From the NCBI RefSeq assembly GCF_004362045.1, contig NZ_SNWX01000001.1, forward strand, positions 1 through 64,000: a stretch of DNA of 64,000 bases, given 5' to 3'. This document shows, one piece after another, positions 34,827-37,710 of this stretch. The notes below the pieces were generated by a model that saw only the letters and a program-made list of their open reading frames with translations, was not told the DNA's origin and ran no database searches. A program made the position numbers and the translations under genes. The number at the start of each line of letters is the position of its first letter. The stretch's first letter is position 1. This DNA comes from Halanaerobium saccharolyticum. Lineage in GTDB: Bacteria > Bacillota > Halanaerobiia > Halanaerobiales > Halanaerobiaceae.

Positions 34827-34971
34827 TGACTGCCTGAGATTCGGCTCTCGTAATTTCTGCTGTTCCCCTAAATTCTGCCGGGTCCAGTCTCCCCCTCCTA
34901 ATCTTAATTGCCATCTTAAAACCGTCTAAAGTTGTAATCGAATAATAAAAGCAAATAATGACTTTACAGCT

Positions 34972-35001
34972 GACAATACAAATGATAAAATAAAGAGCAA
35001 G
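34972..35001 (+). promoter_or_regulatory. niaR promoter with candidate NiaR operator
   Basis: TTTACA (34973-34978), 17 bases and TAAAAT. The -35 lies inside CTTTACAGCTGAC (34972-34984). The reverse complement of 35593-35605 is CTTTACAGCTGTC, one base different, located before the transporter genes. A repressor bound here would cover the -35. Confidence 0.6.
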
Positions 35002-35038
35002 TAATTTAAAAGGGATTTAAAATGATTAATTTACCGGG

Positions 35039-35569
35039 GTGATTAAAATTAAGACCAAACAGAGAAGAGAAAAGCTGCTGCAGAGACTAAAAAAATCTCA
35101 AAAAGCATTAATTGGTTCCCAGCTGGCCGAAGAATTTGGAGTCAGCCGTCAGGTGATTGTCCAGGATATTGCTCTTCTGCGGGCCCAGGGAGAAAAAATT
35201 GTTGCCACCTCACAGGGTTATTTTTATGAAGAAAATCTGGGGATGCCCACTGTTAAAGCTTCTATTGCCTGTCGTCATGATGATCAGGAAGAACTTAAAG
35301 ATGAGCTTTTAACTGTGGTAAATTACGGTGGGCGAATTATTGATGTTAAAGTTGAGCATCCAATTTACGGAGAACTCTGTGGGAATCTGATGATCAGCAG
35401 TGTTGAGGATGTAGAAAATTTTGTCCACAACTACCATCAAAATGAGGCAGCACTGCTTTCAAAATTAACTGATGGAGTTCATCTGCACACAATTGAAGCT
35501 GTTAATGAGCAGGTTCTGGAAAAAATCAAAGATGAGTTAGATGAAAAAGGTTATTTGCTGGAAGAATAA
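35039..35569 (+). CDS. niaR: niacin-responsive transcriptional repressor NiaR (HTH + 3H domain)
   Basis: The 176-residue protein has an N-terminal winged helix (LIGSQLAEEFGVSRQVIVQDI). The 3H domain has its three conserved histidine sites: CRHDDQEE, KVEHPIYGEL and DGVHLHTIEA. NiaR proteins repress NAD and niacin-uptake genes when niacin is present. The annotated GTG (35039) overlaps its own GGGGTG, so an ATT a few codons on (35048) is another possible start. The next two genes form a transporter, which suggests niacin uptake as the regulated function. Confidence 0.85.
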   Translation: MIKIKTKQRREKLLQRLKKSQKALIGSQLAEEFGVSRQVIVQDIALLRAQGEKIVATSQGYFYEENLGMPTVKASIACRHDDQEELKDELLTVVNYGGRIIDVKVEHPIYGELCGNLMISSVEDVENFVHNYHQNEAALLSKLTDGVHLHTIEAVNEQVLEKIKDELDEKGYLLEE

Positions 35570-35585
35570 TATATTTTTGCTTTTA

Positions 35586-35605
35586 CTGTAAAGACAGCTG
35601 TAAAG
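35586..35605. promoter_or_regulatory. candidate NiaR operator before symporter genes
   Basis: CTGTAAAGACAGCTGTAAAG contains two CTGTAAAG units 5 bases apart, and a third CTGTAAA follows at 35611. The reverse complement shares 12 of 13 bases with the motif over the niaR -35. It lies 32 bases before the first symporter gene. Confidence 0.5.
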
Positions 35606-35636
35606 TTTTGCTGTAAAAATTGGGAGGTATCTAATT

Positions 35637-35834
35637 ATGGAGAATAAGAAATTGAAGAAACTGCGTTTATTTTACACACTGGTAATTCTGCTGCTGGTGA
35701 TTTCTGCTTTTGCAGTCCCCTATACTCTGCTCAACTCGATTAATCTTTTTAGAGGGGCCTTTTTGTTCTGGAGTCTTTTTGCTTTAACCGTTATCTTTTT
35801 GACTATCAAAATCACAGGTTACTGGAGGGAATAA
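35637..35834 (+). CDS. small two-helix membrane protein (YhdT/DUF997-like)
   Basis: The 65-residue protein has two hydrophobic segments (about residues 11-31 and 38-58) with a short polar turn and no signal peptide. Small proteins of this kind (DUF997/YhdT or DUF4212) accompany sodium:solute symporters. It is followed by such a symporter after three bases, so the two probably form one transporter. GGGAGG precedes the ATG. Confidence 0.7.
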   Translation: MENKKLKKLRLFYTLVILLLVISAFAVPYTLLNSINLFRGAFLFWSLFALTVIFLTIKITGYWRE

Positions 35835-35837
35835 CAA

Positions 35838-37325
35838 ATGCCAACAATATATTTATACACAGCGGTAATTTTATACATAATTATTGGATCAATAGTTGCT
35901 TTAATGGCCAGAAAAGAAATGAATGAAGGTGTGATAGAATATTTTTTAAGTGGGAGAAATACAGGTGGTTTTGTGGCAGCTCTGTCTTATAGTGCCACCA
36001 CCTACAGTGCTTTTATGATGATTGGCCTGGCGGGTTTTACATATTCTGGAGGAGTTGGGGCCCTCGGTTTTGAACTGGTTTATTTATCCGGTTTGTCCCT
36101 GGTTGCTTTTTTTGGTCCCCGTTTCTGGTTGATCGGCAAAAAGAATAACTATGTCTCTCCCTATGAGATGCTTGGAGATCGCTATCAGAATCAGTGGATT
36201 GCTTTTGCTGCTTCACTTTCGGCCTGTGTTTTTCTGATTCCTTATCTGGCGGTACAGCTGATGGGAGTTGGTTATCTCTTGAGCGGACTTTCCGGAGGTG
36301 AAATCCCCTTTGTCTTCGGGGTGGTAATTGCTGTAGTGCTGGCCATCGCCTGGGCTTTAATTGCCGGGATGAAATCTGTTACCTGGACTGATTCTCTGCA
36401 GTCATTAATCATGATTCTGGTCAGTATTATAATTTTGTTTTATGTAATTTATCAGCATCTGGGAGGTTTTATGAGCTTCTTTGGTTCTCTGACTGCCCTG
36501 GAAGGGAATGTGCTGACTGTGCCGGGGCCGGGATTTTTTAGTTTCAAAACTTTCCTCGGTTTGAGTCTGCCCTGGTTTTTCTTTTCAATTTCTAATCCCC
36601 AGGTCAGCCAGCGGCTCTTTATTCCCCGGGACTTAAAGGCAATGAAGACTATGATTAAAGGCTTTTTGCTTTTCGGATTTATTTATACCCTGGTTTCAGT
36701 TTTCTGGGGTTTTTCTGCCCGTCTCTTAATTCCAGGCCTGGCTAATGCTGATCTGGCAACACCGGAGCTGCTGGCATCTCAATATGTGCCAACTATTTTA
36801 GCGCTGGTGGCGATGATTGGAATCACTGCCGCTGCAATTTCTACCATTGACTCGATAATGCTGACTTTATCCTCACTTGTAGTCAGAGATATTTTCAAAA
36901 ATATGGAGGATAATCTGGATCAGGATCAGAATTTAAGACAGCTTCGAACTGCGAAAATTGCAATTTTGATCATTGCTCTTCTGGGATTTTTCTTTGCGAT
37001 TCAGGAGCTTGATTTAATTGCAGCCCTGTCAGTGGCAGCCTCAGTTGGTCTGCTGGTTGTAGTGCCTTCGATGTTTGGGGCCTTTTTCTGGAAAAAAGCT
37101 ACAGCAGCTGCTTCTTTGAGCAGTATAATTGTCGGTTCAGCTGCCGCCTTATATCTGCAGTTTAGCGGCTGGAGTCCCCTGGGATATGGTGCCGGAGTCT
37201 GGACATTTCTTGTTTCGACAGCAGTTTTTCTGATAGTCAGCTTATTTACCCAGGCTCCAACAAAAAAAGCCGAAGAATTTATCGGCTATATTAACCAGGA
37301 ATGTAATCGGAAAGATATTCTCTAA
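35838..37325 (+). CDS. sodium:solute symporter family transporter
   Basis: This 495-residue protein has about 13 membrane segments. It has the SSS-type opening VIEYFLSGRNTGGFVAALSY, the sodium-site helix TTYSAFMMIGLAGFTYSGG, and the ISTIDSIMLTLSSLVVRDIF region. It resembles the PanF branch (pantothenate symporters). Its position after NiaR and a shared motif make niacin or a related vitamin precursor a possible substrate. Substrate specificity cannot be read from the sequence. Confidence 0.85.
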   Translation: MPTIYLYTAVILYIIIGSIVALMARKEMNEGVIEYFLSGRNTGGFVAALSYSATTYSAFMMIGLAGFTYSGGVGALGFELVYLSGLSLVAFFGPRFWLIGKKNNYVSPYEMLGDRYQNQWIAFAASLSACVFLIPYLAVQLMGVGYLLSGLSGGEIPFVFGVVIAVVLAIAWALIAGMKSVTWTDSLQSLIMILVSIIILFYVIYQHLGGFMSFFGSLTALEGNVLTVPGPGFFSFKTFLGLSLPWFFFSISNPQVSQRLFIPRDLKAMKTMIKGFLLFGFIYTLVSVFWGFSARLLIPGLANADLATPELLASQYVPTILALVAMIGITAAAISTIDSIMLTLSSLVVRDIFKNMEDNLDQDQNLRQLRTAKIAILIIALLGFFFAIQELDLIAALSVAASVGLLVVVPSMFGAFFWKKATAAASLSSIIVGSAAALYLQFSGWSPLGYGAGVWTFLVSTAVFLIVSLFTQAPTKKAEEFIGYINQECNRKDIL

Positions 37326-37439: not shown

Positions 37440-37710
37440 TTTAAAAACTTTGATCAGGGAAAGTAATTAGAAGTATTTATCTCAGCGAAGCGGGGTTAGT
37501 GAGAGCCTGCCGGTAAGTATTTTAATGAAGTTCCCCTGTGAGTTGTCAGCTGAACGAAAAAGTAAGCCTGCACCGGCCGTCTACCGTTATCCGGACAGAT
37601 TATTGGAATCATTAATAATTCCCGTAATTGTTGAGTGGGCTTTTTAGCCAAAAAGATTGGTACCACGAGAATTCAAACCCTCGTTCTTTAATTAGAGCGG
37701 GGGTTTTTTG
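37440..37710 (+). promoter_or_regulatory. T-box riboswitch, Phe (TTC) specifier
   Basis: This leader reads the charging state of tRNA-Phe. It has the stem I elements (AGTGAGAGCC, AGTTGTCAGCTGAA), the specifier TTC at 37531-37533, and the T-box GGTACCACG at 37659-37667. A terminator hairpin follows (CCCTCGTTCT with AGAGCGGGGG and Ts, about 37678-37707). Uncharged tRNA-Phe would favour antitermination and pheA expression. The specifier was located by aligning this leader to the second T-box, and it matches the pathway of the next gene. Confidence 0.88.

Follow-up and report, generated by a model that had tools for sequence, protein, structure and literature searches.

In the NiaR (YrxA) regulon of Firmicutes, membrane protein and NAD genes lie under a single repressor, whose type I operator has the core TGT-N4-ACA (PMC7713382, PMC5343564, PMC6593275). 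Niacin-dependent repression is the behavior established for NiaR (PMC7713382, PMC5343564), and the streptococcal operator consensus is given as TACWRGTGTMTWKACASYTRWAW (PMC5343564). A survey of gut genomes names three B3 transporters, NiaP, NiaX, and NiaY, confidently found in only 25% of B3 auxotrophs; it reports no identified B3 transporter even in Escherichia coli K-12 (PMC6593275). The locus considered here lies in a 64-kb stretch of Halanaerobium saccharolyticum DNA (the window) and comprises, from left to right and all on the plus strand, niaR, a gene for a small membrane protein, and a gene for a symporter of the sodium/solute symporter (SSS) family. It shares with the Firmicutes regulon the regulator and the operator type and, in two relatives, the grouping of a membrane protein with NAD genes. 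Unlike regulons served by NiaP, NiaX, or NiaY, its transporter is an SSS protein with a two-helix partner. NiaP belongs to the major facilitator superfamily and NiaX to the energy-coupling factor transporters, and none of the three is known to be an SSS protein. The locus is very probably a niacin uptake module: a NiaR-repressed Na+:nicotinate symporter of the SSS family, acting with a two-helix partner.

The features in question are these:

34952..34987, no strand assigned: putative NiaR operator of niaR, with a pair of degenerate cores that overlap; third-best window site with an out-of-genus matrix
34963..34991, plus strand: sigma-70-like niaR promoter (TTTACA, 17 nt, TAAAAT), a consensus match only, overlapped by the operator
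35039..35569, plus strand: niaR, predicted niacin-responsive repressor of 176 aa, with HTH_11 and 3H domains
35580..35603, no strand assigned: putative NiaR operator for the transporter genes (core TGT-AAAG-ACA, 35587-35596), kept in 19/19 Halanaerobiales genomes with the SSS gene
35637..35834, plus strand: small 65-aa membrane protein with two hydrophobic helices and without a Pfam or NCBIfam family
35838..37325, plus strand: SSS-family symporter of 495 aa, the proposed Na+:nicotinate symporter; PF00474, below the PanF equivalog cut-off, with sodium-site residues

In the regulator, an HTH_11 domain (57.3 bits) precedes a 3H domain (117.9 bits), each exceeding its cut-off, and the closest solved chains are all NiaR proteins (7cv0, 9ebr, and 1j5y, about 143 bits each). 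Metal and niacin ligand residues have been described for the solved Bacillus halodurans NiaR (PMC7713382). These, His83, Glu91, His150, and His152, correspond to H80, E89, H148, and H150 of the window protein. Domains and matching residues together mark the predicted repressor as a genuine NiaR.

The sequence-only reading had proposed that a 13-base motif is shared between the niaR −35 region and the transporter genes. Both copies are present. The first, CTTTACAGCTGAC, occupies 34962-34974 on the plus strand, starting ten bases 5' of where that reading had placed it, and overlaps the −35-like TTTACA (34963-34968), which is separated by 17 bases from TAAAAT (34986-34991). The second, CTTTACAGCTGTC, is a 12-of-13 match at 35593-35605 on the minus strand; the small gene begins 32 bases on, at 35637. 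As an operator-like motif, the 13-mer fared less well: it half-covers the TGT-N4-ACA operator, but is not itself the operator unit. With up to two mismatches allowed, it has three matches in the window against 1.2 expected, and 12 of 100 shuffled sequences reach three, so the 13-mer alone is not significant. Across the genome, CTTTACAGCTGWC with at most one mismatch has 24 matches, against one for the reversed control; 20 of the 22 outside the locus fall within open reading frames, which rules the 13-mer out as a regulatory unit. A looser 15-mer (215 matches in this genome against 59 for its reversed control) yielded no useful regulon, and its sole perfect match (C11:8611) falls in a coding frame.

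Read in the operator register, the sites look different. The transporter operator is TGTAAAGACA at 35587-35596, an exact TGT-N4-ACA with flanks CTGT...ACAG. A 24-bp matrix built from the sites of 19 relatives scores 35580-35603 at 23.1 bits, the top of the window; the runner-up in 64 kb reaches 12.0, and the maxima of 20 simulated 64-kb sequences range from 5.7 to 14.5. In this register, the transporter site stands well above chance. A more independent matrix, built from nine sites outside the genus, ranks the transporter site first in the window (12.5) and the niaR promoter site third (10.1). Simulated maxima span 8.1-18.7 and thus take in both scores; this second matrix lends support through the rank and position of the sites rather than through their scores. 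In the niaR promoter, the −35 region is covered by a pair of degenerate, overlapping cores, TGACTTTACA and TGACAATACA: TGA-CTTT-ACA (34959-34968) and TGA-CAAT-ACA (34971-34980).

Conservation of the arrangement was surveyed in 38 genomes of the order Halanaerobiales, the SSS orthologues being at least 66% identical over the aligned part. (G-numbers label the compared genomes, G000 being that of the window.) NiaR is encoded in 21 genomes and the orthologous SSS in 19. The two co-occur: 18 genomes have both, three have only NiaR (G024, G025, and G029), one has only the SSS (G005), and 16 have neither (Fisher p = 6e-7, kinship ignored). The order niaR, small gene, SSS gene holds in all 18 genomes with both, and TGT-N4-ACA is found either in the gap between niaR and the small gene or 5' of the small gene in all 19 SSS genomes of the order. 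In three genomes (G018, G014, and G032), the operator, read by eye, merges into TTGACA, a possible −35 element. Seven further genomes of the family (G001, G003, G006, G007, G008, G009, and G013) have the exact core 5' of niaR as well. None was found at that place in G002, G004, or G011, or in any niaR promoter inspected outside the family. Judged by these sites, autoregulation of niaR appears patchier than the transporter operator.

Two rearranged loci were also seen. In G001 (L040, 3406-8130), the full cassette of niaR, small gene, and SSS gene is tandemly duplicated with a 2455-bp period. In G005 (L117, 7382-11012), niaR is gone, whereas the small gene, the SSS gene, and an operator-like site are kept; transposase-like frames lie just 5'.

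Several relatives tie the cassette to NAD metabolism directly. In G002 and G004, it runs on into nadA-nadB-nadC after a gap of 32 bp behind the SSS gene (nadA and nadB assigned by NCBIfam). A 76-residue nadA remnant lies directly 3' of the SSS gene in G021, as if a nadABC-type operon had decayed, and nadE lies immediately 5' of niaR in G014. The window genome itself encodes a nicotinate phosphoribosyltransferase, PncB (TIGR01513, 593 bits against a cut-off of 297; 2f7f, 435 bits). It also retains an orphan nadA (G000:C2:43719-44588, L038), and no QRPTase_N match in it is strong enough for nadC. With pncB present and no recognizable nadC despite nadA, the organism should therefore depend on external niacin. 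Two small same-strand frames precede the orphan nadA, at least one of them helix-turn-helix-like. Among the 19 SSS genomes, PF04095 pncB is found in nine and nadC in two.

The three genomes with NiaR alone show a different gene behind the repressor. Directly 3' of niaR, each encodes an unrelated hydrophobic membrane protein of 176-182 aa, behind TGTATATACA (matrix scores 19.5-21.6). Strong matches to this protein are confined to these three of the 38 genomes; a weak match in G004 (E = 7.5e-4, 20 bits) was left out of the count. The protein has no match in Pfam, NCBIfam, or PDB, and its identification as a named niacin transporter is accordingly unsupported. By position, operator, and hydrophobic profile, it may at most be called "NiaX-like".

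The symporter matches PF00474 over the full profile, positions 1-406 of 406 (137.4 bits, cut-off 22.8). Its nearest solved relatives by profile are SiaT (5nv9, 48 bits) and vSGLT (2xq2, 46 bits), proteins with sugar-acid and sugar substrates, respectively, and distant in sequence; the Ser/Thr pair of the Na2 site and the aspartate of the Na3 site are kept. In the window protein, the Na2 pair of transmembrane segment 8 is S335 and T336, and the Na3 aspartate of segment 5 is D185; all three are invariant in 12 aligned relatives. One serine of the Na3 site is replaced by D338. Since the Na2 pair and Na3 aspartate of SiaT are retained, Na+ coupling is likely.

The small partner accompanies every Halanaerobiales SSS examined, three nucleotides separating its stop codon from the SSS start codon in the window. 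It has no family match in Pfam or NCBIfam searches. Outside the order, it lies beside at least 11 of 14 SSS homologues (nine by BLAST; G075 and G152 by visual inspection of reading frames). This constancy suggests that the 65-residue, two-helix protein would be a subunit of the symporter.

Those 14 homologues emerged when 398 genomes of the phylum were searched with a profile; 20 have an SSS match at E <= 1e-90, and the neighborhoods of all 14 outside the order were read. Three (G075, G117, and G152) show the entire arrangement: small gene and SSS gene following niaR, plus an operator-like site. A tree of 32 such symporters and E. coli PanF shows clustering of the 20 NiaR-adjacent rows, but with three changes needed, it does not establish one uninterrupted origin of the NiaR linkage.

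A fourth homologue, in G147, appears in a setting that resembles the nicotinate-fermentation cluster represented by 3hrd and 2vun. Here nicotinate dehydrogenase genes flank the small gene and an SSS homologue (58%) on one side, and an enamidase gene does so on the other. The molybdopterin subunits match 3hrd_A at 500 bits (next 211) and 3hrd_B at 354 bits (next 175); for the enamidase, 2vun (556 bits) is the sole PDB match at the cut-off used. We take these genes to constitute the anaerobic nicotinate breakdown pathway. This operon differs from the window locus in that it breaks nicotinate down and has no NiaR operator 5' of the small gene.

Together, these observations suggest the following mechanism. 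Nicotinate-bound NiaR would sit on TGT-N4-ACA operators in its own promoter and before the small gene and SSS gene, so that high niacin would silence both transcripts. When niacin is scarce, NiaR would release both operators, and the Na+-coupled symporter would be made along with its 65-residue partner. The pair would then import nicotinate, or a very close pyridine carboxylate, and nicotinate phosphoribosyltransferase would turn the imported nicotinate into NAD. A role in uptake of niacin or a precursor had been put forward for the two membrane proteins by the sequence-only reading, and the gene context in relatives appears to bear it out. Niacin uptake is favored by four independent elements of that context: the operator in every SSS relative of the order; nadABC within the same apparent operon in two species; the replacement protein at the same operator; and the nicotinate-catabolism homologue of G147. 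Nicotinate is thus the probable substrate.

A number of points weigh against niacin uptake under NiaR control. G005 retains its SSS gene although it is without NiaR, and the window's own niaR promoter site is degenerate, with TGA in place of TGT. The motif had been expected to recur at other NAD genes of the genome; a matrix scan found no operator at either the orphan nadA or pncB, and NAD genes stand behind it only in sister species, where they share the cassette's apparent operon. PF04095 pncB and nadC are both missing from eight of the 19 SSS genomes, although seven of these have a second, weaker nicotinate phosphoribosyltransferase-like protein (about 440-450 aa, below the NCBIfam cut-off); G032 has none. 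Outside the order, 11 of the 14 homologues are not beside niaR, and some are near LarE or LarA-type genes. The G147 operon also contains an NCS1-type permease, itself a possible nicotinate carrier, so the assignment of that function to the SSS homologue is not exclusive. Finally, PanF is the best-scoring NCBIfam model for the symporter, though far below cut-off, and the window genome is without panC (0 matches).

In the course of the survey, a protein of 430-450 aa was read at L118 (3775-5103); it matches QRPTase_N and, below cut-off, a nicotinate phosphoribosyltransferase model. In two genomes read, it lies near a pyrimidine-nucleoside phosphorylase, and matches of similar size occur in most of the order. 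It is possibly a second niacin-salvage enzyme.

Lack of panC means that the window organism must import pantothenate or a precursor, and the symporter could be a divergent PanF doing so, with NiaR control as general vitamin housekeeping. PanF of E. coli is indeed an SSS protein, and a small membrane gene, yhdT, lies directly 5' of its own. However, the window symporter is 27% identical to E. coli PanF, and scores 158.9 bits against the PanF equivalog model (TIGR02119), under half of the curated cut-off of 328.05, which rules it out as PanF by that standard. Its partner shows no relation to YhdT (hhalign probability 0.15% for a 12-member small-protein alignment against YhdT), and regulation is different. 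Distribution argues in the same direction: the SSS gene is present in 17 of 34 panC-negative and two of four panC-positive genomes, following NiaR rather than panC. Moreover, the nadABC and nicotinate-catabolism contexts are unconnected to pantothenate. Pantothenate import is therefore an unlikely function.

Transport of a different NAD precursor (nicotinamide, nicotinamide riboside, or quinolinate) in place of nicotinate likewise has little probability. The presence of nadA without a recognizable nadC in the window genome would be compatible with this, as would the control by NiaR of the riboside transporter gene pnuC in streptococci (PMC5343564). But quinolinate is unusable without nadC, and the G147 operon degrades nicotinate itself. 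A carboxylate also suits the family better, in that a human SLC5 monocarboxylate carrier takes nicotinate (PMC7462921). The SLC5 proteins in question, SMCT1 and SMCT2, belong to the same superfamily and carry monocarboxylates coupled to Na+, with nicotinate named for SMCT2 (PMC7462921); they are animal proteins, have no small partner or NiaR, and are likened to the window symporter by description.

Hydroxy acids form a third class of candidate substrate. LarE directly adjoins the SSS pair in G083 (L135) and G221 (L141), in opposite gene orders, and a LarA-type racemase gene lies downstream of the homologue in G112. Such neighbors imply that the wider subfamily may carry other acids. It could move lactate, malate, or other hydroxy acids, with the NiaR link a lineage-specific recruitment that left the substrate unchanged. 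LarE builds the nickel-pincer cofactor from a dinucleotide derived from nicotinate. The LarE and LarA contexts therefore fit nicotinate supply as well as hydroxy-acid transport. In addition, G112 has an operator-like site (score 15.6), and no link between NiaR and hydroxy acids was seen in this analysis. We consider an unchanged hydroxy-acid substrate very improbable. Weakest of all is the notion that the shared motif arose by chance and the symporter has nothing to do with NiaR: the 13-mer alone is near chance, but an operator kept in 19/19 genomes, ranked first in the window, and found before nad operons contradicts it, leaving next to no probability.

A wider proposal extends the niacin uptake module beyond this genome, and is held with distinctly more reserve, as somewhat probable. 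A two-component, Na+-driven B3 importer, consisting of the SSS protein and an obligate two-helix subunit, would serve as the standard niacin transporter under NiaR in Halanaerobiales and in at least one further lineage of Firmicutes. In some species, an unrelated membrane protein would have taken its place behind the same operator; in other bacteria, the importer would have been reused for nicotinate fermentation and possibly for nickel-pincer cofactor synthesis.

Downstream of the locus, a T-box leader (37441-37690, 96.6 bits) lies 5' of a prephenate dehydratase gene, at the head of an aromatic amino acid gene cluster.

The literature search, conducted mainly in open literature with the 2008 regulon paper and regulon databases outside its scope, returned no bacterial SSS niacin transporter and no paper on NiaR in Halanaerobium. 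By word search, a review of prokaryotic SSS transporters contains neither "nicotin-" nor "niacin" (PMC7918813). The novelty would thus lie in a new transporter type for a known regulon, and not in a new kind of system.

Assignments for vitamin B3 uptake in bacteria are poor, a gap that would be partly filled by a new transporter family bearing a clear operator signature. If the proposed function is correct, many proteins labeled PanF-like or sodium/solute symporter could be re-annotated, and a testable Na+-coupled nicotinate carrier would be at hand. Moreover, these loci would provide a case of one repressor retaining its site through an exchange of the transporter behind it.

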